This document shows, one piece after another, positions 34,424 to 55,518 of a stretch of 64,000 bases of DNA. The stretch comes from Chromatiales bacterium (GTDB lineage Bacteria; Pseudomonadota; Gammaproteobacteria; Steroidobacterales; GCA-2729495). The translations under genes were made by a program, and so were the position numbers. Location of the stretch: positions 1 to 64,000 of the forward strand of contig JAFIFS010000101.1 in NCBI GenBank assembly GCA_020831895.1. Direction: 5' to 3'. The notes under the pieces were generated by a model. The model saw nothing but the letters and a program-made list of their open reading frames with translations. It was not told the origin of the DNA and ran no database searches. Within the stretch, counting starts at the first letter, position 1, and each line of letters begins with the position of its first letter.

Positions 34424-34455
34424 TTGGCGCTTCGGGGTTCGCGGGCGCAGGGTTC

Positions 34456-35112
34456 ATGTGGGAAATCATCCAGGCGGGCGGCTGGCTGATGCTGCCGATC
34501 CTCCTGTGCTCGGTCATCGCCTGCGCGATCATCGCCGAGCGGCTCTGGACGCTGCAGCCACAGCGCGTGATACCCGCGGACCTCAGTCGCCAGGTCTGGG
34601 ACTGGATCAGCCGCAACCAGCTCACGCAGCAGCACCTGCAGGCCTTGCGCGAGACTTCGCCACTGGGGCAGGTTCTCGCTGCGGGGCTGGCAAGCCGGCA
34701 CCGTGACCGCGAGGGCATGAAGGAGAGCATCGAGGACACAGGCCGTCACGTGGTCCACGAGATGGAGCGCTACCTGACGACGCTGGGTACGATCGCGGCC
34801 GTGACGCCGCTGCTCGGCCTGCTCGGCACCGTGATCGGCATGATCAAGGTCTTCAACGCGATCACGCTCGAGGGCGTGGGCGACCCGGGCGTTCTCGCCG
34901 GCGGTATCTCGGAGGCGCTGATCACGACCGCTGCCGGACTCAGCGTAGCGATTCCCTCCCTTATGGCCTATCGTTACCTGCGCAGCCGGATCGACGGGCT
35001 CGTCGTCAGCATGGAGAAGGAAGCGCTCGCGCTGCTGGATGCCCTTCAGCGCAAGCAGGGTCTGGACAACCTGGTGCAAGGCGATGAATCTTCGCTCCAG
35101 CACGCGCGATGA
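34456..35112 (+). CDS. exbB: ExbB/TolQ-family proton channel protein
   Basis: Component of a proton-motive-force-driven energiser for TonB-like transport. 218 residues with three membrane helices (about 10-30, 108-132, 150-172) and the family core YLTTLGTIAAVTPLLGLLGTVIGMIKVF, then ISEALITTAAGLSVAIPSLMAY. The gene starts 32 bases after comEC and overlaps exbD by 29 bases. No tonB follows; in this position before msbA-lpxK the pair's partner is unknown. Confidence 0.92.
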   Translation: MWEIIQAGGWLMLPILLCSVIACAIIAERLWTLQPQRVIPADLSRQVWDWISRNQLTQQHLQALRETSPLGQVLAAGLASRHRDREGMKESIEDTGRHVVHEMERYLTTLGTIAAVTPLLGLLGTVIGMIKVFNAITLEGVGDPGVLAGGISEALITTAAGLSVAIPSLMAYRYLRSRIDGLVVSMEKEALALLDALQRKQGLDNLVQGDESSLQHAR

Positions 35113-35509
35113 GCCGGAGATCAACCTCACGTCGCTGATCGACGTGGTGCTGCTGCTGCTGGTGTTCTTCATGATCACGACCAGCTTCGTGCGCGAGTCC
35201 CACATCGCGCTGCGGCTACCTGAAGCCAGCGAATCACGCCAGCCACCCGGAGCCGCCGAGGTCCTGGAGATCAGCGTGGGCGCGGATGGCAGCTACCGTG
35301 TCAACGGCCGCGCACTGATCGATGCAAGGCCCGAGACCCTCCGTGCGGCGATCCGGCTGGTCAGCGCCGATGAACTGCCCGGACCCGTCACCATCAGCGC
35401 GGACGCCCGCGCTCCGCACCAGGCCGTCGTCACGGCGATGGACGTCGCCGGCCGGCTGGGCCATGTCGAGATCCGCATCGCGACCACCGATGTGCGTGAC
35501 GACGACTGA
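35084..35509 (+). CDS. exbD: ExbD/TolR-family biopolymer transport protein
   Basis: 141 residues from ATG 35084 (MNLRSSTRDEPEINLTSLIDVV). The single membrane helix LIDVVLLLLVFFMITTSF (about residues 16-33) carries the conserved Asp for proton translocation, followed by a periplasmic ExbD/TolR domain (LEISVGADGSYRVNGR, ADARAPHQAVVTAMDVAGRLG). The ORF opens at 35039 but the earlier part overlaps exbB and lacks family character. Works with ExbB. Confidence 0.92.
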   Translation: MNLRSSTRDEPEINLTSLIDVVLLLLVFFMITTSFVRESHIALRLPEASESRQPPGAAEVLEISVGADGSYRVNGRALIDARPETLRAAIRLVSADELPGPVTISADARAPHQAVVTAMDVAGRLGHVEIRIATTDVRDDD

Positions 35510-35530
35510 CGCGCAGCGGGTCGGCGGGCG

Positions 35531-37297: not shown

Positions 37298-38303
37298 ACG
37301 CGCGCGGCGCTGGGAGCGCCGCTGGTATGGCGCGCCGCCAGGTCCGCTGTTGCGCCTGCCGGCGCTGCTGTTCGCCGGCATCTCCGTGTTGCGCCGCAGG
37401 CTCTACCAGGGCGGATGGCTGGCCGTCAGTCACCCCGGCGTACCGGTGATCGTGGTCGGGAACCTGACGGTTGGTGGCACGGGCAAGACACCCTGCACGG
37501 CCTGGCTGGCCGGCGAGCTGCGCCAGGCCGGGTGGCGGCCGGGCATCGTCAGTCGTGGTCATGGCGGTCGCCTGCGCGGGCCGCACCTGCTGCAGCCAGG
37601 CGACGAGGCCGGGAAGGTCGGTGACGAGCCGCTGCTACTGATGCGCGAGACCGGCTGTCCGGTCAGTATCGGCCGTGACCGGCCGGCAGCGGCGCGCCTG
37701 CTGCTCGGCCAGGGCTGTGATGTCGTGATCGCGGACGATGGCCTCCAGCACTACCGGCTTGGCAGGGACATCGAGATCGCCGTGGTCGATGGACGTCGCG
37801 GCTTCGGCAACGGTGCCCTGTTACCGGCGGGCCCGCTGCGCGAGCCGGCGGGACGGCTGGCCGACTGCGACTTCGTGCTGGTCAATGGCGGTGCCGGGAG
37901 CGCCGCCACTCGCCTGCCGGAACACCCGGGCAGGTGGCCGGTCGCGGTACGTGCCGGTGAGCTGCGCAGCCTGGATGGCCAGCTGCGGCGACCACTCGCC
38001 AGCCTGGCCGGCCAGCGCGTGCGCTTGCTGGCCGGGATCGGGCATCCGGCGCGACTGGTGGCCGAGCTTGAGGCGGCGGGGCTCGTGGTCGAACCCCTGC
38101 CGGTCGCCGACCATGGGCGGGTCGCCGCCACCGATCTGGCCGCGCATCCCGATCTGCCCCTGCTGATGACGGCCAAGGATGCCGTCAAGTACCCGGCGCT
38201 GGCACGCCAGGACTGCTGGATCATCGAGGCGCGGCTCGAGGTGCCGGCTGGCCTTGCCGGTGCCATCCTCGCGCGGCTGCCGGGCAGCCCGCGGGCAGTG
38301 TAG
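37284..38303 (+). CDS. lpxK: Tetraacyldisaccharide 4'-kinase
   Basis: Phosphorylates the 4' position of the lipid A disaccharide. 339 residues from ATG 37284. Early helix LLRLPALLFAGISVLRRRLYQ (membrane association), P-loop VVGNLTVGGTGKTP (about residues 56-69), SRGHGG (about 93), IADDGLQHYRLGRDIEIAVVDG (about 150-171) and LLMTAKDAVKYP near residue 293 are the LpxK signatures. The upstream open stretch to 37197 is msbA shadow. The Trm112-family gene ycaR, often next, is missing here. Confidence 0.95.
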   Translation: MSQAERARRWERRWYGAPPGPLLRLPALLFAGISVLRRRLYQGGWLAVSHPGVPVIVVGNLTVGGTGKTPCTAWLAGELRQAGWRPGIVSRGHGGRLRGPHLLQPGDEAGKVGDEPLLLMRETGCPVSIGRDRPAAARLLLGQGCDVVIADDGLQHYRLGRDIEIAVVDGRRGFGNGALLPAGPLREPAGRLADCDFVLVNGGAGSAATRLPEHPGRWPVAVRAGELRSLDGQLRRPLASLAGQRVRLLAGIGHPARLVAELEAAGLVVEPLPVADHGRVAATDLAAHPDLPLLMTAKDAVKYPALARQDCWIIEARLEVPAGLAGAILARLPGSPRAV

Positions 38304-38353
38304 GCGGGCGCGGCGGGCCGCGTGCTGGCTGCGGGCTGCTAGACTTGCGCGCG

Positions 38354-39094
38354 ATGGATTTCCGCGTAGTCATTCCGGCCCGCTTCGCGTCCTCGCGCCT
38401 GCCGGGCAAGGCCCTGCTGCCGCTGGCCGGCCGGCCGATGATCGAGCACGTCTGGCGGCAGGCGACGCGCAGCCATGCGCGCGAGGTCATCATCGCGACC
38501 GACGATGACCGGGTGCGCGATGCGGCGCAGGCTTTCGGTGCTGGAGTGGTGATGACCGCGAGCACGCACCGCTCCGGAACCGAGCGCATCGCCGAGGTCG
38601 CGACCCTGCGTGGCTGGCCTGACGACCAGATCGTGGTCAACTGCCAGGGCGACGCCCCGCTGGCACCACCGGAGAACATCGACCAGGTGGCAGGGCTGCT
38701 GGCGGCTGACCGCGCCGCCGGCATGGCGACCCTGTGCGTGCCGATCCTCGACGACGAGGACTACGAGAGTCCGCATGTGGTGAAGGTGGTCGCCGACCGC
38801 GACGGGCGCGCGCTGTACTTCAGCCGGGCGCCGATCCCGGCCCGTGGCCACGACGGCAGCATGCCGGCGCAGGCCTTCCGGCACCTCGGCCTGTATGCCT
38901 ATCGCGCGGGTACGCTGCGTGAGCTCGCGGCCAGCGCGGCCTGCGCGCTTGAGCTGTCAGAACAACTCGAGCAGCTGCGTGCACTGTGGCTGGGCATAGG
39001 GATCAGCATCGCGACGGCGAACGTCGTGCCGGGCCCCGATGTCGATACGCCGGATGACCTCGCCCGGGTCGCGGCGCTGCTGAAGCCGCGCTGA
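38354..39094 (+). CDS. kdsB: 3-deoxy-manno-octulosonate cytidylyltransferase
   Basis: Activates Kdo as CMP-Kdo for lipid A-Kdo assembly. 246 residues with VVIPARFASSRLPGKALLPLAGRPM (residues 5-29), IATDDDRV, RSGTERIAEVA and VDTPDDLARV near the C-terminus. The usual QGDEP segment reads NCQGDAPL (about residues 96-103), so the conserved Glu after the metal-binding Asp is Ala; all other motifs look normal. A TTG at 38345 would add three residues; ATG 38354 is the conserved start. It overlaps the next gene by 1 base. Confidence 0.92.
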   Translation: MDFRVVIPARFASSRLPGKALLPLAGRPMIEHVWRQATRSHAREVIIATDDDRVRDAAQAFGAGVVMTASTHRSGTERIAEVATLRGWPDDQIVVNCQGDAPLAPPENIDQVAGLLAADRAAGMATLCVPILDDEDYESPHVVKVVADRDGRALYFSRAPIPARGHDGSMPAQAFRHLGLYAYRAGTLRELAASAACALELSEQLEQLRALWLGIGISIATANVVPGPDVDTPDDLARVAALLKPR

Positions 39095-39663
39095 TGCTGG
39101 GACGGATCTGGCGCCGGCTGCGCGGGCCGGCCGGAAGCTCGACGGAGGCTGCAATGAGTGGTGAGGGTAGCGTGGGTGTGTTGCTGGTCTGCATGGGCAA
39201 CATCTGCCGTTCGCCCATGGCCGAGGGCGTGTTGCGTCACCGCCTGGCTGGCCTGGAGCGTCCGCTGCCGGTCCGCGTCGACTCTGCCGGCACGCATGGC
39301 TATCACCGGAATGCTGCTCCCGACCCGCGCGCCCAGGCGGCCATGCGGCGACGCGGTATAGAGATTGCCGATCTGCGGGCGCGAAAGGTGGTCCATGAGG
39401 ACCTGCAGCGCTTTGACCTGATTCTCGCAATGGACGAGGACAACCTCGCCTTCCTTCAGGCCATGGCCGGTGACAGCATGGCCGACAGGCTGCGTCTGTT
39501 CATGGATTTTGCGCCGCAGGCCCGCTCGCGTATCGTTCCCGATCCCTACTACGGGGGCAACAGCGGGTTCGAGCGGGTGCTCGACCTGATCGAGGAAGCG
39601 AACACGGGGCTCCTCGAGGACCTCGCCCGGCGCGCGGGCAGGCCCGGCCCGCCCGCGCGCTGA
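39094..39663 (+). CDS. Low-molecular-weight protein tyrosine phosphatase
   Basis: The P-loop CMGNICRSP (C-x5-R, about residues 33-41 of the long form), the DSAGTHGYHRNAAPDPRAQ segment and the general-acid loop PDPYYGG (about 149-155) identify an LMW-PTP. The first ATG at 39094 overlaps the kdsB stop (TGATG) and gives 189 residues; the ATG at 39154 (MSGEGSVGVLLVCMGN) gives 169, nearer the usual 150-165, so the true start is uncertain. Related enzymes act in exopolysaccharide control (Wzb) or stress; the substrate is unknown. Converges with rne. Confidence 0.9.
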   Translation: MLGRIWRRLRGPAGSSTEAAMSGEGSVGVLLVCMGNICRSPMAEGVLRHRLAGLERPLPVRVDSAGTHGYHRNAAPDPRAQAAMRRRGIEIADLRARKVVHEDLQRFDLILAMDEDNLAFLQAMAGDSMADRLRLFMDFAPQARSRIVPDPYYGGNSGFERVLDLIEEANTGLLEDLARRAGRPGPPAR

Positions 39664-39669
39664 GCGGCC

Positions 39670-42336
39670 TCAGTCATTTCCGCTGTCCGGGCGCCTGGGG
39701 GCCTCTGCAGCGGGTTGCGGCCTGGGTGCCGGCGCAGGGGCCGCTGGTTTTTCCACCACAGCTGACTTGTCCGTAACAGGAGCCGGTGCTGTCCGGGCCG
39801 GGCTGCCGTTGCCTGGGCCGGCAGCTGACGACATCGGGGCAGCGGGTGCCGGAGGGATGGCAGGTGCTGGCGGTGCCACCGTCGTTGAAGGGGCCGCTGG
39901 TGGCGCCATCGGACGGGCGGGCTGCGAAGCCGGTGGGACGGCCGGCGCGGCCGCAGCTGGAGGCGGCCTGGATGCCGGGTCAGATGCAGCCGGGGCAGGG
40001 CTGGATGCCGGAGCAGGTGTGACCGAAGCTGACGCAGGCTGCGGTGGGGCGGGTTGCGGCGTCTCGGGTCGTGGCGCAGGAGAGGCGCTGCTGCCTTCGG
40101 CGGTCGCCGCCGCAGGCGGCTCTAACCGTCGCTCACCCCCGACCGGCTGATTATCCTGGCTGGCGGCGGGCTGGCCGTCAGCCGGATCATTCTGGGTCGT
40201 GGCCGACTCCCGCTGCTCGCCTCTTTCCGCGCCGCGCTGCGCGCGACCCTGGCCGCCACGCCGGCGCCTGCGGCGCGGGCGATCGCCACGGGCCTGCTGG
40301 CCCACGGTCGCCTCCTGGCCGTCGCCGGAAACCGACGCATCCGGCTGCGATGCCTCCTGCCGGGAGGTGTCCTGGCGCCGGGCTTCGGCTTCGGGCTGCC
40401 GGCGGCTGGACTCGCCGCGAGCTTCCCGCGATTCCGGGCGGCTGTCATCCCCATCGGCGCCACGCCGGCCGCGTCCGGTGCGCCGACGGTCCTGCGGTGC
40501 GCTCCCGCGTCCGCCCCGTCGCTGTCCGGGGCCCCGGCTGCTGCGGCCCTCGCCGCTGCGGCTGCGGGTCCGCGGGCTGCTGCTCTCGTCGCTAATGCCC
40601 GGCTGGCGTTGTTCAGGATCCGGACTGGCCGATGGCTTCAACCAGGCGAACAGCCGGGCGAGCAGCCCGGGCGCCTGGCTCGCTGCGCGGTCCGGCGACG
40701 CCGCAGGCGCCGGCGGTGCGTTGGGCAGCACCGTACTGACCACGGGCTGTTCCGGGCTTGGCCGCCCGGCCGCCAGCTGCTCCAGCCGGGTGGCGGGGTC
40801 CAGCTCTTCCGCGGACTGCAGCGTCTGCTCATAGCTCGCGGCGGTGTTTTCCGGCAGCTCGGCCTGGTCGTCGCGGACCCGGCGCAGCTCGTAGTTAGGT
40901 GTCTGGAGGTCTGAACTCGCCACCAGCATGATGGCGATGTTCTCGCGTTCCTCGATCGTGCGGATCCAGTCCCGCTTCTCGTTCAGGAGGAAATTGGCAA
41001 CGTCCATGGGCAGCTGCGCGATCACCTTGGCCGTGCGCTCCTTGCGTGCCTCCTCGCCGAGCAGGCGCAGCACCGCGAGCCCCAGCGACTCGACGCTGCG
41101 CACATAGCCGGCGCCACCGCAGCGCGGGCAGGTCTGGTGCGCCGACTCCCCCAGCGAGGGTCGCAGGCGCTGGCGTGACATCTCGAGCAGGCCGAAGCGC
41201 GAGATGCGCCCGATCTGGATCCGCGCCCGGTCCATCTTGACGGCATCGCGCAGGCGCGTCTCGACTTCGCGCTGGTTGCGCTGCGGCGTCATGTCGATGA
41301 AGTCGATGACGATCAGGCCGCCCAGGTCGCGCAGGCGCAGCTGGCGTGCGATCTCGTCCGCAGCCTCGAGGTTGGTGGCCAGCGCGGTTTCCTCGATGTC
41401 ATCGCCCTTGGTGGCCCGGGCGGAGTTGATGTCGATGGATACCAGCGCCTCGGTATGGTCGATCACGATGCTGCCGCCCGAGGGCAGCTCGACGGTGTGC
41501 CGGAATGCGGACTCGATCTGGCTCTCGATCTGGTAGCGCGTGAACAGCGGCACGTCCTCGCTGTACATGCGCAGCTTCGACAGGTTGTGGGGCATCGCGC
41601 GCTCGACGAACTGCCGGGCCTCGGCATAGGTGCCCGCATCGTCGATGCAGATTTCGCCGATATCAGCAGCCAGGTGGTCGCGCAGCGCGCGGATCACCGC
41701 ATTGCTGTCCTGGAAGATCAGGAAGGGCGCGGGGCGGCCAACGACCGCAGCCTTGATCGCCTCCCATATGCCGAGGAGGTAGTCGAGGTCCCAGCGGATT
41801 TCTTCCGTCGAGCGCCCGACGCCGGCGGTGCGCACGATGATGCCCATGCCTTCGGGCACCTCGATCTCGCGCAGCGTCTCGCGCAGCTCGTCCCGGTCAT
41901 CGCCGCTGACCCTGCGCGACACGCCGCCCGCCCGGGGGTTGTTCGGCATCAGCACGATGAAGCGCCCTGCCAGGCTGATGAAGGTGGTGAGTGCGGCGCC
42001 CTTGTTGCCGCGCTCCTCCTTTTCAACCTGCACGACGATTTCCTGACCCTCGCGCAGCAGTTCCTTGATGTTCAGGCGAGCGCCGTTCTCGGGTTCCTTC
42101 AGGAAGTACTCGCGGGAGACTTCCTTGAGTGGCAGGAAGCCGTGCCGGCTGGAGCCGTAGTCGACGAAGGCGGCCTCGAGGCTGGGCTCAACGCGGGTGA
42201 TGCGGCCCTTGTAGATATTGGCCTTTTTCTGTTCGCGGCCGGTGGATTCTATGTCCAGGTCGTACAGGCGCTGGCCATCGACCATTGCCACGCGCAACTC
42301 CTCGGACTGAGTTGCATTGATCAGCATTCTTTTCAT
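39670..42336 (-). CDS. rne: Ribonuclease E
   Basis: Endoribonuclease initiating mRNA decay and processing rRNA and tRNA precursors, scaffold of the degradosome. 888 residues. Catalytic half (1 to about 520): MKRMLINATQ, S1 domain with ANIYKGRITRVEPSLEAAFVDYG (about 39-61), DNase I-like subdomain with VSIDINSARATKGDD (catalytic Asp near 304) and LGGLIVIDFIDM (second Asp near 347), and the zinc-link CPRCGGAG (about 405). The C-terminal half is first Arg/Gly/Ser-rich (about 570-700, RNA binding) then Pro/Ala-rich to the end, with no obvious folded domain. ATG 42336 follows AGGA. Confidence 0.97.
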   Translation of the reverse strand: MKRMLINATQSEELRVAMVDGQRLYDLDIESTGREQKKANIYKGRITRVEPSLEAAFVDYGSSRHGFLPLKEVSREYFLKEPENGARLNIKELLREGQEIVVQVEKEERGNKGAALTTFISLAGRFIVLMPNNPRAGGVSRRVSGDDRDELRETLREIEVPEGMGIIVRTAGVGRSTEEIRWDLDYLLGIWEAIKAAVVGRPAPFLIFQDSNAVIRALRDHLAADIGEICIDDAGTYAEARQFVERAMPHNLSKLRMYSEDVPLFTRYQIESQIESAFRHTVELPSGGSIVIDHTEALVSIDINSARATKGDDIEETALATNLEAADEIARQLRLRDLGGLIVIDFIDMTPQRNQREVETRLRDAVKMDRARIQIGRISRFGLLEMSRQRLRPSLGESAHQTCPRCGGAGYVRSVESLGLAVLRLLGEEARKERTAKVIAQLPMDVANFLLNEKRDWIRTIEERENIAIMLVASSDLQTPNYELRRVRDDQAELPENTAASYEQTLQSAEELDPATRLEQLAAGRPSPEQPVVSTVLPNAPPAPAASPDRAASQAPGLLARLFAWLKPSASPDPEQRQPGISDESSSPRTRSRSGEGRSSRGPGQRRGGRGSAPQDRRRTGRGRRGADGDDSRPESREARGESSRRQPEAEARRQDTSRQEASQPDASVSGDGQEATVGQQARGDRPRRRRRRGGQGRAQRGAERGEQRESATTQNDPADGQPAASQDNQPVGGERRLEPPAAATAEGSSASPAPRPETPQPAPPQPASASVTPAPASSPAPAASDPASRPPPAAAAPAVPPASQPARPMAPPAAPSTTVAPPAPAIPPAPAAPMSSAAGPGNGSPARTAPAPVTDKSAVVEKPAAPAPAPRPQPAAEAPRRPDSGND

Positions 42337-42690
42337 GTGTTCCTGTCTCGGCAGTACCGGTTGCAGTACGCGAGCCTCCCGGGAACAACTCAGGCGGGCC
42401 AGTGTCCTGGCGACAGTGGCTCAGCAGCACGGACAGGAACAGGCGGCACCAATCGGTGCGCCCGTTCCGGATGTCATAGTGGACGGCTGCTGCCATCATG
42501 CGCAGGCCCTCGAACAATCCTGGTCCAACCTGCAGCCGCGGGCGCACCGGTCAGGTGCGCCGTCCGGGAGGTCGTCTCTGGCCCGTCAAGCGGGCCCCTT
42601 TGGCTCACCCGCAGGCCAGGGCCGGCGGGCGCTACAAGAATCCGGCGCCATGTCCCGTTGCTGCGGGCACTGGCGCGAGGTTCAGCAGAC
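42337..42690 (-). promoter_or_regulatory. Long rne 5' leader with strong hairpins
   Basis: Between the predicted transcription start near 42690 and the rne ATG lie about 354 bases with no gene on either strand. They contain strong hairpins: 42541-42561 (perfect 8-bp stem, 5-base loop), 42580-42596 (6-bp stem) and 42443-42462. E. coli rne has a similarly long (about 360-nt) leader whose stem-loops let RNase E control its own mRNA stability; the same role is inferred here from length and structure, not from sequence identity. Confidence 0.6.
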
Positions 42691-42696
42691 GACTGT

Positions 42697-42725
42697 AATA
42701 TAGCAGCGCATCCCAGAGCCAGCAA
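42697..42725 (-). promoter_or_regulatory. Candidate rne promoter
   Basis: On the minus strand TTGCTG (42725-42720), a 17-base spacer and TATATT (42702-42697, 5 of 6 to TATAAT) form a sigma-70-like pair. Start of transcription would be near 42690. The -35 overlaps the region just before the rluC start, so the two divergent genes may share this control region. Confidence 0.5.
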
Positions 42726-42741
42726 TGAAAGTTCCCACTAA

Positions 42742-43710
42742 GTGCCCGCATCGGAAAGAATTTCCGGGAATCCCCGACGTTCAGCGGTACAGCGCCTGAC
42801 TGTGGGCGAGGACGAGGAGCACCGCCGCCTCGACAATTTCCTGATGTCCCGCCTCAAGGGACTGCCGCGCTCGCGCGTGTACCGGCTGATCCGCAGCGGG
42901 GAGGTCCGGGTCAACGGTGGCCGGGCGAGACCGGCAACACGGCTGGTCCCGGGCGACGAGGTGCGCGTGCCGCCGGTGCAGCTGGAGGCCGAGGCGGCCG
43001 ACCTCCCGGCCCGCCCCGGCCAGCTGGAGTGGATACGGCGTCTGGTCTGCCATGAGGACGAGGACCTGCTGGTGCTGGACAAGCCAGCCGGCCTTGCGGT
43101 GCATGGGGGCAGCGGCATCCGGCTCGGCGCGATCGAGCTGCTGCGCAAGGCGATTCCGCATGGCGGGTCGCTGGAGCTGGTCCACCGGCTTGATCGGGAG
43201 ACCAGCGGCTGCCTGCTGGTGGCACGGCGCCGGAGCAGCCTGCGCAGGCTGCACCAGCAGTTTCGCGACGGCAGCATCGACAAGCGCTACCTTGCACTGC
43301 TGACTGGCGGGGACTTCAGCTCGGACAGCCTGGTCTGCGCGGCGCCCCTGCGCACCAGCGAGCGGCGCGGCGGGGAGCGCCATGTGCAGGTAGACCCTGA
43401 AGGCAAGCCGGCGCGAACCGAGTTCCAGCTTCTGCGCCGGTACCCCGGCGCCGCACTGGCCGATGTCCGGCTGCTGACGGGGCGTACCCACCAGATTCGT
43501 GTCCATGCCGCTGCGCTGGGTCACCCGCTGGCGGGCGATCCGCGCTATGGCAGGGCCGATGATCCCATCGTCCACCATGCGGGCCTCTCGCGGCTGTTCC
43601 TGCATGCTGCGTCCCTGAGCTTCGAGCATCCGCGCGACGGGCGCCTGGTCACCGTCCGCTGTCCACTGCCGGAGGAGCTCGCCGCCGTGCTGGGACGGCT
43701 CGACGGGTGA
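42742..43710 (+). CDS. rluC: 23S rRNA pseudouridine(955/2504/2580) synthase RluC
   Basis: Pseudouridine synthase of the RsuA/RluC/RluD family. The N-terminal S4 RNA-binding domain (RRLDNFLMSRLKGLPRSRVYRLIRSGEVRVNGG, about residues 28-60) is followed by LLVLDKPAGLAVHGG (about 109-123) and the catalytic Asp in VHRLDRETSGCLLVARR (about 148-164), with RTHQIRVHAAALGHPLAGD near 250. The GTG at 42742 is the furthest usable start; an upstream ATG at 42725 is in another frame. Divergence from rne is the standard gammaproteobacterial arrangement and favours RluC. 322 residues. Confidence 0.93.
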   Translation: MPASERISGNPRRSAVQRLTVGEDEEHRRLDNFLMSRLKGLPRSRVYRLIRSGEVRVNGGRARPATRLVPGDEVRVPPVQLEAEAADLPARPGQLEWIRRLVCHEDEDLLVLDKPAGLAVHGGSGIRLGAIELLRKAIPHGGSLELVHRLDRETSGCLLVARRRSSLRRLHQQFRDGSIDKRYLALLTGGDFSSDSLVCAAPLRTSERRGGERHVQVDPEGKPARTEFQLLRRYPGAALADVRLLTGRTHQIRVHAAALGHPLAGDPRYGRADDPIVHHAGLSRLFLHAASLSFEHPRDGRLVTVRCPLPEELAAVLGRLDG

Positions 43711-43716
43711 TCTGGT

Positions 43717-44304
43717 TCAGGGAAGCTGAAAACCCAGCCCGCGCAGCGCCCGGGTCACGCTGATCAGCGGCAGACCCTCGAGCGCGGTCGGGTCGGTGCT
43801 GTTGACGGCATCGAACAGCGTGATCCCGAGTCCCTCGATCTTGAAGCTTCCGGCGCTGTCCAGCGGTTGCTCCCGCAGCACATAGCGCTCGAGTTCCGCC
43901 GGTTCGAGCTGGCGAAACACGGTCTCGGTCCTGTCCAGGTGCTCGAGGACCACCTCGCCCCGCGGCCCGAGAACGGTGACCGCGGTCAGGAATACGACGC
44001 TGCGCCCGCTGCAGGCTGCCAGCTGCTCGATGGCACGGCGCTCGTCACCCGGCTTGCCGAGCGCGCGATCGCCCAGCGTGGCGACCTGGTCGCTGCCGAT
44101 GACCACGGCCCCGGGCTCCAGCCCGGAGACGGCAGCGGCCTTGGCCCGCGCCAGGCGGAGCGCAAGCTCTCCGGGCCCCTCGCCGGGCATGGGCGTTTCG
44201 TCGACCCCGGGGCTGCGGCAGCAGAATTCCTCGAGCACCCGTGCGAGCAGGCGGCGCCGGTAAACCGAGGAGGAGGCGAGGACGACCGGGGGCAGGACAG
44301 GCAT
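43717..44304 (-). CDS. maf: Maf-family nucleotide pyrophosphatase (YceF type)
   Basis: Hydrolyses non-canonical or modified nucleoside triphosphates (YceF: 7-methyl-GTP). 195 residues from ATG 44304 (MPVLPPVVLASSSVYRRRLL). Maf motifs: LASSSVYRR (about residues 9-17), VDETPMPGE (about 34), IGSDQVATL (about 69-77) with the catalytic Asp, and DSAGSFKIEGLGITLF (about 149-164). The pocket reading of SAGSFKIE and the location opposite yceD-rpmF favour YceF. The upstream in-frame start at 44340 lies in the divergent yceD promoter. Confidence 0.92.
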   Translation of the reverse strand: MPVLPPVVLASSSVYRRRLLARVLEEFCCRSPGVDETPMPGEGPGELALRLARAKAAAVSGLEPGAVVIGSDQVATLGDRALGKPGDERRAIEQLAACSGRSVVFLTAVTVLGPRGEVVLEHLDRTETVFRQLEPAELERYVLREQPLDSAGSFKIEGLGITLFDAVNSTDPTALEGLPLISVTRALRGLGFQLP

Positions 44305-44330
44305 GGACAGGCTCCGTGGTGCGGGGGATT

Positions 44331-44359
44331 TTGACAGCACAATGGCTGATTCTTATCAT
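44331..44359 (+). promoter_or_regulatory. Near-consensus sigma-70 promoter of the yceD operon
   Basis: TTGACA (44331-44336, perfect -35), a 17-base spacer, and TATCAT (44354-44359, 5 of 6 to -10). It is the best sigma-70 promoter I see in the window. Transcription should start around 44365-44367, only 2-4 bases before the ATG at 44369, so the transcript would be almost leaderless. Confidence 0.8.
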
Positions 44360-44368
44360 AGGCCGATT

Positions 44369-44887
44369 ATGCTGCCTGCGAGCTTCAGCGCGGGCGAGCT
44401 GGCTGAACTGGTGGCCCGCTCGGCCAGCCGGTCGTTCGAGTTTCCCGCGGAATCCTGTGCGCGCCTGGCCAGGCTGGTGGTGGAGAACCCCGCCGGCCCG
44501 GGCCCCGAGCTGCGCGCGGAAGTAAGGTTCCGGGAAATCGATGGTGGCCCGGGGCTGGAACTGAGGCTGAGCGGGACGCTACGGCTCAGGTGCCAGCGCT
44601 GCCTGGAGCCGTTCGAATGGCCGCTGGACGAGGGCTGCGAGCTGCGTATCTGCACGAGCGAGGCGGCGGCGGGCGCAACCGGCGAACCGTTCGACACGGT
44701 GGTGCTGAACGACGCCGGCCAGCTGCCGCTGGCCGAGGTGGTCGAGGACGAGCTGCTGGCGGCATTGCCGCTGTCGGCCCGGCACCCGGATGCGGCACAA
44801 TGCGCCCCTGGGGCAGGGGCGGCGCCCGGCGACGACGGCTTGACCCGTCCGTTCGCGGGCCTCGGTGACCTGCTCGGCCGCAAGTAG
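44369..44887 (+). CDS. yceD: YceD / DUF177 large ribosomal RNA accumulation protein
   Basis: DUF177 family, linked in E. coli and plants to 23S rRNA accumulation and co-transcribed with rpmF. Two cysteines in LRCQRCLEPFEWPL (about residues 71-84) form the family's CxxC; LAEVVEDELLAALPL near 122 and PFAGLGDLLGRK at the C-terminus are also typical. The frame opens at 44303, and an ATG at 44342 exists, but both are upstream of the predicted transcription start, so ATG 44369 (MLPASFSAG) is chosen; it gives 172 residues, as in E. coli (173). Confidence 0.88.
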   Translation: MLPASFSAGELAELVARSASRSFEFPAESCARLARLVVENPAGPGPELRAEVRFREIDGGPGLELRLSGTLRLRCQRCLEPFEWPLDEGCELRICTSEAAAGATGEPFDTVVLNDAGQLPLAEVVEDELLAALPLSARHPDAAQCAPGAGAAPGDDGLTRPFAGLGDLLGRK

Positions 44888-44921
44888 CGGCACAGACTAG
44901 ATCGATGGATGGAGACTTGCG

Positions 44922-45113
44922 ATGGCAGTCCAGAAGAGCCGTAAAACACCGTCCCGGCGTGGCATGCGCCGGGCCCACGACAGCCTTGCGAAGCCCGCGC
45001 TGTCGGTGGAGCCCGGTTCCGGGGAAACTCATCGCCGACATCACGTCAGCCCCGATGGCTGGTATCGCGGCAAGCAGGTGATCCGCCGGCCCGAGGCCGA
45101 GGATCTCGACTGA
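44922..45113 (+). CDS. rpmF: 50S ribosomal protein L32
   Basis: 63 residues. The N-terminal [22 protein letters not shown] is diagnostic of bacterial L32, and the C-terminal [15 protein letters not shown] completes it. No zinc cysteines, as in proteobacterial L32. It sits between yceD and plsX, the conserved gammaproteobacterial order linking ribosome and lipid synthesis. Confidence 0.97.
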
Positions 45114-45201
45114 ACCCGGAGCGGCCCGCAAGGGCCCGCCTGAAGGGCATGCCCGGGCCAGGTTGATGGACCGGCCGCAATCCAGCGAGCAGGGGGCAAG
45201 C

Positions 45202-46212
45202 GTGCGGGATGCCGTTACCATAGCCGTGGACGCCATGGGCGGCGACGCTGGCCCCAGCGTCTGCGTTCCCGCCGCTGTCGGCATGGTGCGCCAGCATCCT
45301 TCCCTGCGTCTCGTGCTTACCGGGCTGCCCGAGGTTCTCGAGCCCGCCCTCGCCCAGGCGGGAGACTGCCGTGACCGCCTCACTATCCGCCCGGCAAGCC
45401 AGGTCGTCGACATGGACGAACCTCCGGCTGATGCGCTGCGCAAGAAGAAGGATTCCTCGCTTCGCCTTGCGATAGACCTGGTCAGGTCCGGGGAGGCGGA
45501 TGCGGCCATCAGCGCCGGCAATACGGGCGCGCTGATGGCCACCGGCCGCTTCGTGCTGAAAACGCTGCCCGGCATCGACCGCCCGGCGATCATGGCCCGT
45601 ATGCCCACGCGGCACGGTGCCGTCTACATGCTTGATCTGGGCGCCAATGCTGACTGTACCTCGGAGCACCTGTTCCAGTTTGCCGTCATGGGTGCCGTCG
45701 TCGCGCGCGTGACAGGCAACAACGCGAACCCCCGCATCGGCCTGCTGAACATCGGCGAGGAGGAGATCAAGGGCAACGACACGGTGCGCCAGGCCGCCGC
45801 ACTGCTCGCGGCGAGCCACCTGAACTACATCGGGTTCATCGAGGGCGACGTAATCCACGAGCACCGTGCAGACGTGATCGTCTGTGACGGCTTCAGCGGC
45901 AACGTCGCGCTGAAGACAATGGAGGGCACGGCGCGCCTGATCCGCCACTTCCTGCGCGCGGAGTTCAGCGGCAGTGTCTACGGCCGGCTCGCTGGCCTGG
46001 TTGCGGCACCGGTGCTGCGCTCGCTCGCCATCAAGCTTGACCCGCGCCAGTACAATGGCGCAAGCCTCGTCGGGCTGAACGGTATCGTGATCAAGAGCCA
46101 CGGCAGTGCGGACGAGGTGGCCTTCCGCCGGGCGCTGACGATCGCGATGCTGGAGGCGCAGATGGGCGTGCCGCAGCTGATCAGGGACCTGCTGGAAGAA
46201 CAGGCCAGATGA
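45202..46212 (+). CDS. plsX: Phosphate acyltransferase PlsX, GTG start
   Basis: Converts acyl-ACP to acyl-phosphate for phospholipid synthesis. Family motifs: [20 protein letters not shown] at the N-terminus, [37 protein letters not shown] (about residues 80-116), [34 protein letters not shown] and [18 protein letters not shown]. The frame is open to a TTG at 45163 and ATG at 45166, but AGGGGG (45191-45196) lies 5 bases before the GTG at 45202, which also matches family N-termini; 336 residues. fabH overlaps its stop. Confidence 0.94.
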
Positions 46213-47177
46213 GATATTCAAGAATCGCCGGAACCGGGCGCTATCTTCCGGAACGGGTGCTGACCAATACCGAGCTCGAGGTCATGGTCGACACCAGCGA
46301 CGAGTGGATCCGGGCCCGCACAGGCATAGAGCGCCGGCATATCGCCGCCGAGGACCAGACCACCCTGGACCTGGCCGAGCAGGCCGCCCGCCAGGCAATG
46401 ACCGCGGCAGGCGTGGGGCCGGCAGACATCGACTTCATCGTCGTGGGAACGACAACACCGGACGTGGTCTTTCCGAACCTCGGCTGCCTTCTGCAGGAGC
46501 GCCTGGGCGTGGCTGCCTGCCCGGCCTTCGCACTGGAGGCTGCCTGCAGCGGGTTCATCTATGCGCTGGGTATTGCGGACCGCTTCGTCAGCGGAGGGAT
46601 GGCCCGCTGCGCGCTGGTCGTCGGTGCCGAGACGCTTTCACGGATCACCGACTGGACCGACCGGTCCACCTGCGTGATCTTCGGTGATGGTGCGGGTGCG
46701 GTGATCGTCCAGCCTGCCGACGAGCCCGGGATCATCTCGGCGCATCTCGCTGCCGACGGCCGCTACAAGGACCTGCTTTACTTCCCCTACGGACCCTCGC
46801 GCCGGCGGCGGCCCGAGGACACCGAGACCGCCGCGATCCACATGCGGGGCAACGAGGTGTTCAAGGTCGCGGTCAAGACCCTGGAGAGCATCGTCGACAC
46901 CACGCTGGCCGCGAACAACCTGGAGCGGGGCCAGATCGACTGGCTGATTCCGCACCAGGCCAACATCAGGATCATCCAGGCAACGGCCAGACGGCTGGAC
47001 ATGCCCATGGACAAGGTCGTGCTGACGCTGATGGATCACGGCAACACCTCGGCTGCATCGGTGCCGATGGCGCTGGATGTGGCCGTACGTGACGGCCGGA
47101 TCAAACGGGGCGACCTGCTGCTGCTCGAGGCCTTCGGTGGCGGGTTCACCTGGGGCTCGGTTCTGCTGCGTTACTGA
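46209..47177 (+). CDS. fabH: Beta-ketoacyl-ACP synthase III
   Basis: Starts fatty acid synthesis by condensing acetyl-CoA with malonyl-ACP. 322 residues with the catalytic triad in its motifs: Cys in [12 protein letters not shown] (about residue 113), His in [10 protein letters not shown] (about 249) and Asn in [10 protein letters not shown] (about 279). N-terminal [15 protein letters not shown]-type segment ([15 protein letters not shown]) is typical. Unlike E. coli, fabD/fabG/acpP do not follow; an L,D-transpeptidase with its own promoter does, so the operon likely ends here. Confidence 0.97.
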
Positions 47178-47185
47178 ACCGGGCA

Positions 47186-47214
47186 CTGGCATTTGCTGTC
47201 GTAGCGGGTATAAC
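47186..47214 (+). promoter_or_regulatory. Candidate promoter of the secreted L,D-transpeptidase
   Basis: CTGGCA (47186-47191, 4 of 6), a 17-base spacer and TATAAC (47209-47214, 5 of 6) lie between fabH and the next gene. Transcription would start near 47221, about 20 bases before the ATG at 47241, leaving room for its GGAGGT. Confidence 0.5.
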
Positions 47215-47240
47215 TAGATATCTTGCGCTGGAGGTCACCA

Positions 47241-48212
47241 ATGTCCGAGTCCCTTTTGCGCCGCGGCGCCCTGCTGTCCGGGCTGTTCCTGGTCCTGTCG
47301 ACGCTGGTTGCACCGCGTGCCCCGGCGGACGTTTTCCTGCTGGTGCCGGGTGAGGACCTGATCGGGGCGGCCAGCAGCATCAGCGCGCGCTACGAGGACA
47401 CCCTGCTCGACATCGGACGGCGCCACGGCCTCGGCTACGAGGACATGCGCAAGGCCAACCCGACCGTCAACACCTGGCTGCCGGGCGAGGGCACCCGGGT
47501 CGAGCTGCCAACCCGCTTCGTGATGCCCATCGCCGCAAGGCAGGGCATTGTCGTGAACCTGCCCGAGTACCGGCTGTACTACTTCTATCGCGAGAACGGG
47601 CAGGACCTGGTGGCTACATTCCCGATCAGCATCGGGCGCATGGACTGGAATACGCCGATTGGTCGCTGGTCGGTCATCGCCAAGCATGAACGGCCGACCT
47701 GGTTCCCGCCGGAATCCATCCGCGCCGAGCATGCTGCCGACGGGCGCTACCTGCCTCGCGCGGTCCCGCCCGGCCCGGACAACCCGCTGGGAGATTATTC
47801 GATCCGGCTCAGCCTGCCGTCCTACCTGATCCACGGCACCAATCGCCCGTCCGGCGTCGGGATGCGCGTGACACACGGCTGTATCCGGATGTTCCCCGAG
47901 GACATCGAGTGGCTCTTCCCGCGGGTCCCGGTCAACGCGCAGGTCCAGATCGTAAGCCAGCCGTACAAGATGGGCTGGAGCGGTGACTATCTCTACCTCG
48001 AGGTCCATCCGCCGCTCGAGGAGGACGAGGAGCGGCGCCAGCGTGGCCTGAGCGCGATCATCGAGCTCTATGTACGTGCGACTGCGGATCGTGCTCCCGA
48101 CCAGGTCGACTGGGAGCTGATCGAGCAGGTGTTCCAGGAAAAGCGTGGCCTGCCGGTCAGGGTCGGCAGCAGCCAGCCTCGCGCGCTTACGGCGGGCATT
48201 CAGGCAAACTAG
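47241..48212 (+). CDS. Secreted L,D-transpeptidase with LysM-like N-terminus (ErfK/YbiS type)
   Basis: Periplasmic YkuD enzyme that crosslinks peptidoglycan or attaches proteins to it. 323 residues from ATG 47241, preceded by GGAGGT at 5-base spacing. Signal peptide LLSGLFLVLSTLVAPRAPAD (cleavage near residue 30), a LysM-like segment (TLLDIGRRHGLGYEDMRKANPTVN, about 54-77), then the YkuD domain with NTPIGRWSV, the catalytic His in LIHGTNRPSG (about 203) and the Cys in THGCIRM (about 219-225). It is likely a partner for the Lpp-like lipoprotein encoded 1.5 kb away, an inference from family knowledge. Confidence 0.9.
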   Translation: MSESLLRRGALLSGLFLVLSTLVAPRAPADVFLLVPGEDLIGAASSISARYEDTLLDIGRRHGLGYEDMRKANPTVNTWLPGEGTRVELPTRFVMPIAARQGIVVNLPEYRLYYFYRENGQDLVATFPISIGRMDWNTPIGRWSVIAKHERPTWFPPESIRAEHAADGRYLPRAVPPGPDNPLGDYSIRLSLPSYLIHGTNRPSGVGMRVTHGCIRMFPEDIEWLFPRVPVNAQVQIVSQPYKMGWSGDYLYLEVHPPLEEDEERRQRGLSAIIELYVRATADRAPDQVDWELIEQVFQEKRGLPVRVGSSQPRALTAGIQAN

Positions 48213-48233
48213 CGCAGTCCTCCGGTCCGGGGG

Positions 48234-48680
48234 TCACCAGGCCACGAACAGCAGGCAGCTGTTGTACCAGGCGTGCAGCAGCACCGGGGTCGCCAGCCGG
48301 CCGTGGCGTTCACGGAAGTAGCCGAACACCAGGCCTGGCCAGAGTACCCCGCTGACCTGCAGGAGGCCACCGCGCGGCCAGTGGCTCAGGGCAAAGGCGG
48401 CTGCACTCAGCAGGTTGGCTACGCTGAGCGGACCAAAGCGCCGCCTCGCCCAGGGCCTTTCCAGCAGCCAGCCCTGGATCAGCCCGCGAAAGACGAGTTC
48501 CTCAAGCACCGGCGAGAGCAGCAGCAGCAGCAGCAGAGCGGTGAGGCCCGAGCCCGACAGGCTGCCGGTGAACCCGGTCAGCGAGACCCAGGCCCAGGCG
48601 CCGGCCGGTCCTGCGGCCAGCGCCAGTGCCAGCAGCGGATCCTTCAGTGGTGAGCGCCCGGGCGGCGCGTGATCATTCAT
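48234..48680 (-). CDS. CPBP-family intramembrane metalloprotease (small)
   Basis: A 148-residue membrane protein with four hydrophobic helices. Signature CPBP motifs: SPVLEELVFRGLIQGWLL (about residues 55-72, Glu-Glu and Arg), ALSHWPRGG (about 97, His) and LLHAWYNSCLLF (about 134, His and Asn). CPBP proteases include CAAX-processing enzymes and bacteriocin-immunity proteins; a short version such as this could also be a sorting protease for a C-terminal-anchor system, but I found no such substrate in the window. Start ATG 48680; converges with the transpeptidase gene. Confidence 0.8.
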   Translation of the reverse strand: MNDHAPPGRSPLKDPLLALALAAGPAGAWAWVSLTGFTGSLSGSGLTALLLLLLLSPVLEELVFRGLIQGWLLERPWARRRFGPLSVANLLSAAAFALSHWPRGGLLQVSGVLWPGLVFGYFRERHGRLATPVLLHAWYNSCLLFVAW

Positions 48681-48686
48681 CCGGGC

Positions 48687-48720
48687 AAAAAAAAGCCGCA
48701 GCCCTCGCGGGCCGCGGCTT
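48687..48720 (-). terminator. Rho-independent terminator of the alanine-zipper lipoprotein gene
   Basis: Read on the minus strand, a 12-bp stem (48709-48720 with 48693-48704, one G-U pair) with a 4-base loop is followed by a run of eight U (48694-48687). It lies 20 bases after the lipoprotein stop codon and just before the CPBP gene, so it separates the two minus-strand genes. Confidence 0.9.
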
Positions 48721-48740
48721 CTCCTGCGGCATGTCAGGCC

Positions 48741-49046
48741 TTACTTGGCCTGGCTGCGCTCGAACATGCGGTCGACTTTTTCATTGGTCGCATCACAGCA
48801 GGCCTGGGCCTGGTTGGCTGCATTCAGCGCCTGGTTGGCCGTGCTCTGTGCGCCGGAAGCGATCTGGCGTGCCTCGGAGGCCGCTGCGCTGGCCGCATCG
48901 GCAGCCGACTTGGCTGCGGCAGCGTCCTGGGCAACGCGGTCGAGACGCGCGCTCATTTCGTTGATTTGCTGGGTCGATGCACAGCCGGATGCGATCAGCA
49001 TCACGACTGCAATCATCCCGCCCTTGAGCGTGGTCTGAAGTTTCAT
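48741..49046 (-). CDS. Alanine-zipper outer-membrane lipoprotein (Lpp/OprI-like)
   Basis: 101 residues. The signal peptide ends in a lipobox (LIASGC, lipidated Cys near residue 21). The mature part is a long Ala/Ser/Asp/Lys coiled-coil in 3-residue and 7-residue repeats (alanine zipper) and ends in SQAK, a C-terminal lysine like the one that attaches Lpp to peptidoglycan. Two adjacent cysteines (ACCDATNEK) near the C-terminus are unusual. The frame is open to 49139, but MKLQTTLKGG at 49046 is the signal start, with GAGGA upstream. Ends in a strong terminator, as an abundant mRNA would. Confidence 0.85.
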   Translation of the reverse strand: MKLQTTLKGGMIAVVMLIASGCASTQQINEMSARLDRVAQDAAAAKSAADAASAAASEARQIASGAQSTANQALNAANQAQACCDATNEKVDRMFERSQAK

Positions 49047-49341
49047 AGTCACAAGTCCTCGAACAGAATTTAAGTTTGGCCAGTTCGTCTTCTTCGCGCA
49101 TGGCAACGCCTGTTGCGGGCAGTCGCCAAGTCGCACCAATCATGAACGAAAGCATGTTGTTGCGCAATCAGTCTAGCGGTTTAGCGGCTTTTTCAAACGC
49201 GGATTTTCACCTGTTTCCCGCGGGCTGCTCCCGTCCTGCGCCGGGGGGCTGGCCGGCAGTGTCCGGACAGGTTGCCCGGCGAGGGGGCACCCGTTCAGGC
49301 GAGGGCGGCAAGGCGTCTCGCACGCAACAGGCGCTACGGGA

Positions 49342-49369
49342 TTGCGTTCCTGTGGAGCCTGTATAAAAT
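49342..49369 (+). promoter_or_regulatory. Candidate lexA promoter
   Basis: TTGCGT (49342-49347), 16 bases, TAAAAT (49364-49369); alternatively TATAAA at 49362-49367. The -10 is overlapped by the first LexA box, as expected for an autorepressed SOS promoter. Confidence 0.5.
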
Positions 49370-49374
49370 GCCAG
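49359..49374 (+). promoter_or_regulatory. LexA box 1 (imperfect)
   Basis: CTGT, eight bases, CCAG: one mismatch to the gammaproteobacterial SOS box CTGT-N8-ACAG, with an AT-rich centre. It covers the -10 region of lexA and is centred 18 bp upstream of box 2. Confidence 0.65.
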
Positions 49375-49376
49375 TA

Positions 49377-49392
49377 CTGTCCATAAGAACAG
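49377..49392 (+). promoter_or_regulatory. LexA box 2 (perfect core)
   Basis: CTGT, eight bases (CCATAAGA), ACAG: an exact SOS-box core, extended outward as TACTGT and ACAGGTA. It lies 10 bases before the lexA start codon. Together the two boxes should let LexA repress the whole lexA-imuA-imuB-dnaE2 cassette until DNA damage. Confidence 0.88.
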
Positions 49393-49402
49393 GTACCCGC
49401 GC

Positions 49403-50023
49403 ATGGCCGCACTGACCCCGAGGCAGTCTGAAATTCTCGATTTCATTCAGTGCTTTATCGACGAGCACGGGATGCCTCCGACGCGCGCCGAGATTGCCGG
49501 CGCGCTCGGGTTCAGTTCGCCCAACGCGGCCGGCGAGCATCTGCGCGCACTGAGCAGGAAGGGCGTGATCGAGCTGCGCCCTGGTGTCTCGCGCGGGATA
49601 CAGCTGACGGTGGGTGGACAGGCGGCCGGCGGTCTCCCGCTGGTCGGGCGCGTCGCAGCCGGTCAGCCACTGCTGGCGACCGAGCACATCGAGGCGCGCT
49701 ACCGGCTCGATGCCGGCCTCTTCAGCCGCAAGCCGCATTACCTGCTGCGTGTACATGGCATGAGCATGCGTGATGCCGGCATCCTCGATGGCGACCTGGT
49801 GGCTGTCTGCCGCACTCCGGATGTACGCAACGGCCAGATCGTCGTCGCGCGTCTCGACGACGAGGTCACGGTCAAGCGTTATCGCCAGCGTGGTTCGCTG
49901 GTCTGGCTGCTGCCCGAGAATCCCGAGCATGAACCGATACGCGTCGACCTGAAGCAGCAGTCGCTGATGATCGAAGGGGTGGTCGTCGGCGTGCTGCGCA
50001 CGCAGGTGAACGTGGCAGCCTGA
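49403..50023 (+). CDS. lexA: SOS repressor LexA
   Basis: 206 residues. N-terminal winged helix ([47 protein letters not shown], residues 4-50), autocleavage site Ala-Gly in [12 protein letters not shown] (about 84-95), and the catalytic Ser ([10 protein letters not shown], near 121) and Lys (EVTVKRYR, near 158) of the S24 peptidase domain. RecA-stimulated self-cleavage should derepress the operon. It heads the imuA-imuB-dnaE2 genes with 16 bases before imuA. Confidence 0.96.
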
Positions 50024-50039
50024 TGCGGGCTCCCGGCGC

Positions 50040-50681
50040 ATGGCGGATGCAGGTGGTATCGATGAACTGCTGCGTGGCCACCTGCTCTGGCGTGGCCCGG
50101 GCCGCGCCGCGCATGGCGCCGCGCCACTGCCCAGCGGTTTTCCCGTGCTTGACCAGGCGCTGGCCGGCGGCTGGCCAGTGGGTGTACTGACCGAGCTGCT
50201 CGTCGACCACTACGGGATCGGTGAGCTCAGCCTGCTGCTGCCGGCCCTGGCCCGGCTGGGCGAGGCACGACCCTCACACTGGCTGATGCTGGTCGCGCCT
50301 CCCTGCCTGCCCTATGCGCCGGCGCTGGAGCAGGCAGGCATACCGCTGTCCCGGCTGCTGCTGGTTCATGCGCAGGGTCGTGACGAGGTGTTCTGGGCCT
50401 GTGAGCAGGGTCTGCGCTCGGGCAGCTGTGCCGCGGTGCTGGCTTTCCCCGGCCAGGCCAGCCTGACAGGACTGAGGCGGCTGCAGCTTGCTGCGCGTGA
50501 CAGCGGCGCCTGGACGGTGCTGTTCCGGCCGGCTTCCAGCCGTCGCCAGCCGTCGCCGGCCGCGCTGCGCATCGCGCTAGCACCCGAGGCACCGGGGTTT
50601 CTGGCGATCGAGATCTTCAAGAGCCGCGTGAGCGGCCGGCCACTGCGCCTGCGGCTCTGTCTGGACGGGGCATGGCCCTGA
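50040..50681 (+). CDS. imuA: Translesion synthesis accessory protein ImuA
   Basis: RecA/SulA-like protein of the ImuA-ImuB-DnaE2 mutasome. 213 residues: LPSGFPVLDQALAGGWPVGVLTELL (about 30-54), HWLMLVAPPCLPYAPALEQAGIPLSRLLLV (about 80-109), EQGLRSGSCAAVLAF and the C-terminal RPLRLRLCL match the ImuA family. There is no proper Walker A, as usual. It overlaps imuB by 10 bases. Confidence 0.9.
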   Translation: MADAGGIDELLRGHLLWRGPGRAAHGAAPLPSGFPVLDQALAGGWPVGVLTELLVDHYGIGELSLLLPALARLGEARPSHWLMLVAPPCLPYAPALEQAGIPLSRLLLVHAQGRDEVFWACEQGLRSGSCAAVLAFPGQASLTGLRRLQLAARDSGAWTVLFRPASSRRQPSPAALRIALAPEAPGFLAIEIFKSRVSGRPLRLRLCLDGAWP

Positions 50682-52018
50682 TGCCGCGGTCGCCACAGGC
50701 GGCAGCGGTCGTGGCCGACAGCCTGGCCGCGCCAGCGGCCGCGCAGCCGGTGGAGGCATCAGCCACGCGCAGGACGCGCCTGTGGCTGTGCCTGCACGAT
50801 CCTGATCTACAGGGTATGCAGCATGACCGGCTGCTGCAGCAGCTGTTCGCATTCACGCCGGTGGTTGCCCGCGACCCGGATGGCGATGCGCTGCTGCTCG
50901 AGGTGGCGGGCAGCCTGCGCCTGTTCGGCGGACTTGGCCGCCTGTGTGCGCGCATACAGGCCCTGCCTGCCTACGCGCATGCCAGCCTCGCGGTTGCGCC
51001 GACCGCGCGGGCGGCGCTCTGGCTTGCACGTGCCGGCGACTGCCGCCCTGTGCGCGACCCCGCACAGTTGCCCGCAGCGCTGTCACGCCTGGCCGTCGCC
51101 GTGACCGGGTGGCCGCAGGCCGCGCTGTCGCTGCTGTCCGGCACCGGCATCCGCACGCTCGGTGAGTGCCTGCGCCTGCCGCGCCACGGGCTGGCGAGGC
51201 GTATCGGCAGGCGCTGCCTGCTCGAGCTGGACCAGGCGCTGGGCCATGCCACGTGGCTGCCGGAGCCGCAGCGGCCATGCTGGCGTTTCCATGAGAGCAG
51301 CGAGCTCCCGGACGCTGCCGCCGATGGCAGCCTGCTGCTGCCGGCGGCGATGCGGCTGCTTGATCGCCTCGTGTCCGGGTTACGCAAGCGCCACGCCGCG
51401 GTAGAGGTGTTGTGGTGGCGGCTGTGCCAGCCAGGTGGTGCTGATGAGCGGGTACGCATCGCGCTCGCCTGTCCAGGCCAGGATCGCGCACTGCTGGGTG
51501 AGCTGGTGGCGCTGCGTTTTTCCACCCTGCGTCTCGCTGCCCCGGTGCAGGTGCTGGAACTGCTGGCCCAGCCGGTGCCGCTGGCCCCTGCCGCCGGCAC
51601 CGACCTGCTCGGCGACCTGCCCGAGACCGGTGGGCCTCGTGCGGCGCTGCTGCAGCGCTTGTCCGCGCGCTTCGGAGCCGATGCGGTACACGGCCTGGCC
51701 AGTCAGCCGCACTGGCAGCCCGAGGCCGCCTGGCAGGCGGTGGGTCTGGCGCCGGGGCGGCGCGTGCCGTCGGCGCCGCCGGCACCCGCAGGCCCGCAGC
51801 CCCTGTGGCTGCTGCCGGAGCCGCGCAGGCTGTCCGCAGCGCCCGGATCCGGTGGCCTGCGCCTGGGCCACGGTCCGCGCCGGCTGGAGACCGGCTGGTG
51901 GGCTGGTGAGAATGTCCGGCGCGACTACTATGCCGCTATCGCGCCGGATGGCCGGCGGCTCTGGGTGTTCCAGGACCTGCGCGATACGCACTGGTACCTG
52001 CATGGCCTGTTCGGGTGA
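50672..52018 (+). CDS. imuB: Catalytically inactive Y-family polymerase ImuB
   Basis: Adaptor of the mutasome that connects DnaE2 to the sliding clamp. 448 residues with a Y-family polymerase fold (LWLCLHDPDLQ at about 31, GTGIRTLGECLRLPRHGLARRIGRR helix-hairpin-helix near 153-177), but the acidic residues of an active Y polymerase (SxDE-type motif) are replaced (EVAGSLRLFGG, about 79-89). The family C-terminus (QPLWLLPEPRRL, GWWAGENVRRDYY, RLWVFQDLRDTHWYLHGLFG) is complete; QPLWLL may be the clamp-binding peptide. dnaE2 overlaps its stop by 4 bases. Confidence 0.93.
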   Translation: MALMPRSPQAAAVVADSLAAPAAAQPVEASATRRTRLWLCLHDPDLQGMQHDRLLQQLFAFTPVVARDPDGDALLLEVAGSLRLFGGLGRLCARIQALPAYAHASLAVAPTARAALWLARAGDCRPVRDPAQLPAALSRLAVAVTGWPQAALSLLSGTGIRTLGECLRLPRHGLARRIGRRCLLELDQALGHATWLPEPQRPCWRFHESSELPDAAADGSLLLPAAMRLLDRLVSGLRKRHAAVEVLWWRLCQPGGADERVRIALACPGQDRALLGELVALRFSTLRLAAPVQVLELLAQPVPLAPAAGTDLLGDLPETGGPRAALLQRLSARFGADAVHGLASQPHWQPEAAWQAVGLAPGRRVPSAPPAPAGPQPLWLLPEPRRLSAAPGSGGLRLGHGPRRLETGWWAGENVRRDYYAAIAPDGRRLWVFQDLRDTHWYLHGLFG

Positions 52019-55101: not shown

Positions 55102-55118
55102 CGGCGGCCCGGTCCCGC

Positions 55119-55400: not shown

Positions 55401-55457
55401 TGCCTTCCTGCGCCCCATTGTTCCGCGCTCGTACCCGCTCCCACGGTATTCGCGGCC

Positions 55458-55486
55458 CTTATAATCGCAATCCCGGCAGCTGACAA
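55458..55486 (-). promoter_or_regulatory. Sigma-70 promoter of the small acidic protein gene
   Basis: On the minus strand TTGTCA (55486-55481, 5 of 6), a 17-base spacer and TATAAG (55463-55458, 5 of 6). Start of transcription near 55451, giving a leader of about 50 bases before the ATG at 55400. Confidence 0.7.
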
Positions 55487-55502
55487 TAGCGACTTATGTG
55501 AA

Positions 55503-55518
55503 GTGCGCAGCAGCGCAC
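55503..55518. other. Perfect hairpin after gspF
   Basis: GTGCGC, a 4-base loop, GCGCAC: a perfect 6-bp stem 30 bases beyond the gspF stop on the minus strand. There is no T-run, so it is at best a weak or Rho-assisted terminator separating gspF from the next gene. Confidence 0.35.

Follow-up and report, generated by a model that had tools for sequence, protein, structure and literature searches.

A conserved promoter nine bases before the yceD start codon and a predicted leaderless yceD-rpmF message in Gammaproteobacteria

In the 64,000-nucleotide stretch of Chromatiales bacterium DNA analysed here (the window), a near-consensus promoter ends nine bases before the start codon of yceD, which encodes a ribosome-assembly protein, and the same geometry recurs across Gammaproteobacteria. 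We regard it as highly probable, from sequence and its conservation, that yceD-rpmF is driven by a housekeeping (sigma70) promoter at positions 44331–44359, placed close enough to the start codon to leave yceD leaderless or nearly so, with a normal Shine-Dalgarno at rpmF. Comparison with relatives shows the promoter to be functional and old, a norm of the class rather than a quirk of one genome.

The promoter and operon in the window

The promoter matches the sigma70 consensus at 11 of 12 bases, and its spacer falls within the accepted 16–18 range (Table 1). The coordinates given in an earlier note on this DNA, TTGACA and TATCAT separated by 17 bases with nine more to ATG 44369, proved exact. 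No other sigma70-like match (at least 9/12) lies in positions 43000–46000, where shuffles would be expected to give 0.2, and there is none in 24000–43999 or 46000–64000, which makes the yceD promoter unique over the 41 kb scanned. Within 43000–46000, neither another promoter-like site nor a forward terminator was found, and yceD, rpmF, plsX and fabH lie close together or overlap. The YceD/DUF177 assignment rests on a PF02620 match of 53.5 bits (gathering cut-off 33.2). A structured RNA leader at yceD was rejected because the window has no Rfam match (nor any tRNA) and the first 60 nt of the yceD message, in the window and in E. coli alike, fold no better than shuffles.

Table 1. Features of the yceD locus in window coordinates
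Feature	Position	Strand	Basis or remark
-35 hexamer TTGACA	44331..44336	+	sequence match; kept in class
-10 hexamer TATCAT, spacer 17	44354..44359	+	sequence match; kept in class
9-base discriminator plus predicted 0–5 nt leader, AGGCCGATT	44360..44368	+	distance 9 in 101/131 class genomes; transcription predicted to start at ~44365–44369
yceD (DUF177), 172 aa, start ATG 44369	44369..44887	+	Pfam match; conserved start position
rpmF (L32), Shine-Dalgarno-like GGAG upstream	44922..45113	+	TIGR01031; rpmF Shine-Dalgarno survey
plsX, longest frame taken	45163..46212	+	TIGR00182
fabH, overlapping plsX stop	46209..47177	+	gene identification
maf, divergent neighbour	43717..44304	-	64 bases between maf and yceD start codons

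Conservation and its taxonomic boundary

Throughout the family and order of the source genome, the pattern TTTTGACA-N17-TANNNT-N9-ATG recurs at yceD with differing spacer sequences, and in several of these relatives in-frame stops at -9 to -15 make any earlier yceD start impossible. Among named genomes, those of Natronospira, Thiohalobacter, Thermomonas, Rhodanobacter and Nitrosomonas have this geometry, as do those of Vibrio, Yersinia, Klebsiella, Erwinia, Serratia and Actinobacillus, and it is present in 78 of the 103 fetched loci where yceD was located. One of these 78, from an alphaproteobacterial MAG (L087), is a poor match at a distance of 12 and most likely reflects chance.

For a class-wide survey, 369 class genomes were drawn evenly, and the DNA upstream of yceD was read at the 150 loci that could be placed. 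A promoter whose -10 box ends 7–12 bases before an in-frame start is present in 131 of the 150, compared with about one in shuffled DNA. Among these 131 promoter-bearing genomes, the distance is exactly nine in 101, the start codon is ATG in 128 and the start lies 58–66 residues before the YceD Pfam domain in 130; the promoter-linked start is the most upstream possible in-frame start in 89 class genomes. At a 9/12 threshold, 95 of 150 loci fall at nine in the distance histogram and the other two frames have no peak there, and when each family is represented by one genome the geometry is found in 56 of 63. The earlier note had expected the arrangement to be unusual in this class, an expectation that was wrong for yceD: it is the rule in Gammaproteobacteria, E. 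coli included. On visual inspection, several of the 19 loci scored negative (L208 and L229, for example) have a -10-like box near the start, and 131 is therefore probably an undercount.

Consensus matches alone are weak evidence, and one alternative is a chance promoter-like match beside an unrelated start codon. Its probability is now negligible: when the 60 upstream bases were shuffled, 0.76 geometry matches arose on average versus 125 observed, and this result, the frame control and the conservation across families together refute a chance match at yceD. The surveyed genomes are related rather than independent draws, but the depth of sampling makes a chance origin of the geometry untenable despite that relatedness. 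In genomes that have a listed yceD, a strict version of the pattern matched 53 times at this gene and 15 times at other places.

The arrangement has a clear boundary. In a phylum-wide draw, the strict pattern stands at yceD in 30 of 46 Gammaproteobacteria genomes and in none of 104 genomes of other classes, whose 25 matches to it lie at other loci; relaxed rules applied to 30 yceD loci from other classes likewise yielded none. In the fetched-locus set, the geometry is absent at yceD from nearly all Alphaproteobacteria, and it was not found at yceD in Legionella/Tatlockia (L099, L107) or Burkholderia/Paraburkholderia (L098, L100, L106). At Burkholderia-type yceD loci, a TTGAC-17-TATG(A/C)T promoter lies at a greater distance upstream, from which we conclude that the leaderless arrangement was lost, replaced or never present in the Burkholderia and Legionella lineages. 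At a different locus, a TTTGACAC...TAAGCTCACGGGAGCATG stretch is conserved in three genomes of another class (G426, G469 and G497; family f209).

Start codon, leader and translation

Three in-frame ATGs are available to yceD in the window, at 44303, 44342 and 44369. The second falls in the 17-base spacer and hence inside the promoter, as had been pointed out earlier. The first, which had been missed, lies upstream of the promoter, is preceded by the Shine-Dalgarno-like AGGACAGG and overlaps the start of divergent maf (44303–44305); automatic annotation that favors the longest frame could lengthen YceD by 22 residues by starting there. A start at 44369 places about 62 residues before the Pfam domain, well within the class range, in keeping with the earlier description of YceD as having exactly its usual length. 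The start-to-domain distance fits 44369 and neither 44342 nor 44303, both of which we reject on this conserved position and on the in-frame stops in relatives; the earlier choice of 44369 is strongly supported.

Transcription usually starts about 6–9 bases after the -10 box. As the box ends nine bases before the ATG, that window corresponds to a leader of about 1–4 nt, and we predict 0–5 nt for yceD; a start at G44365 would leave 4 nt and one at A44366 would leave 3 nt. In the class, the discriminator consensus is roughly T-S-S-S-S-G-C-T-T-ATG, and we infer that the two natural initiation points would be the position-6 G and, for a later start, the first base of the ATG. Shine-Dalgarno-like runs of at least 4 nt precede 8 of 131 yceD starts versus 100 of 101 rpmF starts, and the window yceD has no such run and an AUG start codon, both features of leaderless mRNAs. 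Were transcription to begin at a more upstream site, the trinucleotide AGG at 44360–44362 could serve as a weak Shine-Dalgarno; it is not conserved. A leaderless or nearly leaderless yceD message is very likely, given the fixed promoter–ATG distance, the near-exclusive use of ATG, the missing Shine-Dalgarno, the in-frame stops upstream in relatives and the constant start-to-domain distance. These features strongly support the earlier leaderless reading at the yceD start; the transcript may run on through plsX and fabH. In E. coli, the promoters of yceD are described as driving yceD-rpmF, with the fab genes having additional promoters of their own (PMC13060810).

Alternatively, the main transcript could begin further upstream, at a promoter within maf or antisense to it, so that translation of a leadered mRNA would start at ATG 44303 or 44342 and the conserved promoter would play a minor role. 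The Shine-Dalgarno-like stretch before 44303 would suit such a message, as would the sRNA gene sraB upstream of E. coli yceD and the two E. coli yceD promoters reported in that study; given two promoters, a longer, leadered transcript may coexist. Moreover, an E. coli dRNA-seq study lists five mRNAs with leaders shorter than 10 nt, and yceD is not among them (PMC4681348); its absence may be explained by the threshold, by how start sites were assigned or by a second promoter lying upstream. We nevertheless judge an upstream origin improbable, because the 41 kb scanned hold no other sigma70-like site, in relatives in-frame stops separate promoter and ATG, the fixed start-to-domain position excludes both upstream ATGs and the conserved start lacks a Shine-Dalgarno.

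We propose that RNA polymerase would start 0–5 bases before the yceD AUG, and that the resulting message, lacking a Shine-Dalgarno, would be read by the leaderless route, in which 70S ribosomes or initiation complexes engage the 5'-proximal AUG. With a normal Shine-Dalgarno at rpmF, one mRNA would then give little YceD and much L32. This difference between the two starts fits the report that E. coli yceD is translated less efficiently than rpmF (PMC4378010). Positions 2–6 of the discriminator are GGCCG in the window and 91% G+C in 66 core class members, compared with 52% in the spacer. A G+C-rich discriminator is a sequence signature of stringent control, which makes growth-rate sensitivity of the operon plausible, and the operon would accordingly be a candidate for growth-rate/ppGpp control.

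Why the arrangement has been kept is a separate question. The promoter could be an ancestral one that became frozen, its short leader serving no purpose of its own, with YceD needed in small amounts and no selection on leaderless translation itself. We give this account a substantial chance, somewhat short of even: in its favor, E. coli translates yceD poorly compared with rpmF and a yceD deletion grows normally (PMC5049393); against it, the exact nine-base distance and the ATG have been kept over many families while discriminator and spacer diverged. Persistence of a leaderless start at one housekeeping operon over dozens of families suggests selection for leaderlessness. Tentatively, and as a possibility we would not yet bet on, yceD-rpmF may be a core housekeeping operon held leaderless at a nearly fixed -10-to-AUG distance across Gammaproteobacteria, in which the dependence of YceD, a ribosome-assembly factor, on leaderless (70S) initiation and of L32 on Shine-Dalgarno initiation forms a built-in ribosome-state sensor. 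If so, ribosome state would be sensed in this way in a class whose leaderless genes are regarded as few and commonly of phage origin.

Comparison with E. coli and other leaderless systems

In E. coli K-12, the annotated yceD start (1146794) is the ATG of TTGACT-17-TAATAT-GCGCGCCCT-ATG, and the 65-bp stretch is carried by 5,370 of 5,426 complete E. coli genomes. A 2014 paper named E. coli yceD, in passing, as a gene without a 5' noncoding leader (PMC4378010). Leaderlessness of E. coli yceD is thus already on record, and the window copy adds a member; in the open-licence literature, we found no description of class-wide, fixed-distance conservation at yceD, which is weak evidence of absence. The E. 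coli yceD-rpmF locus (yceDp) shares with the window its gene order, the divergent maf/yceF, the TTGAC(A/T)-17-TAnnnT-9-ATG geometry and the lack of a Shine-Dalgarno before yceD. By contrast, enterics have -35 TTGACT and -10 TAATAT, the E. coli discriminator differs from that of the window, and the E. coli intergenic region is longer and contains sraB. The sRNA SraB is annotated between yceF/maf and yceD (L111:2090-2258; NC_000913.3 1146589-1146757) and stops 36 bases short of the E. coli yceD ATG, immediately before the conserved promoter; the maf–yceD gap of the window has no room for an SraB-like RNA.

More broadly, enterobacteria and their relatives are considered to have few leaderless mRNAs (PMC9031893, PMC5230787), and E. 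coli yceD offers a natural, non-phage test case for the use of leaderless initiation. Gene finders that demand a Shine-Dalgarno or favor the longest frame may assign yceD a wrong start, as the ATG at 44303 illustrates. Known enterobacterial leaderless mRNAs (lambda cI, Tn1721 tetR, racR, dicA, ymfK, rhlB and pgpA) have a 5' end within 10 nt of the AUG, as predicted for yceD, and no Shine-Dalgarno. Most of them, however, encode phage or mobile-element regulators or are isolated housekeeping genes (PMC4681348), whereas yceD heads a ribosome/lipid operon kept across a class. The acuR operon of Rhodobacter sphaeroides (PMC3293720) is similar in that its first gene is leaderless and yields much less protein than the genes that follow it on that mRNA, but its genes are unrelated, it encodes a regulatory protein and it belongs to a different class. 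Finally, stringently controlled sigma70 promoters of rRNA and ribosomal operons share the near-consensus -35 and -10 elements and the G+C-rich discriminator; the yceD promoter differs from them in that the start codon follows immediately after the discriminator.
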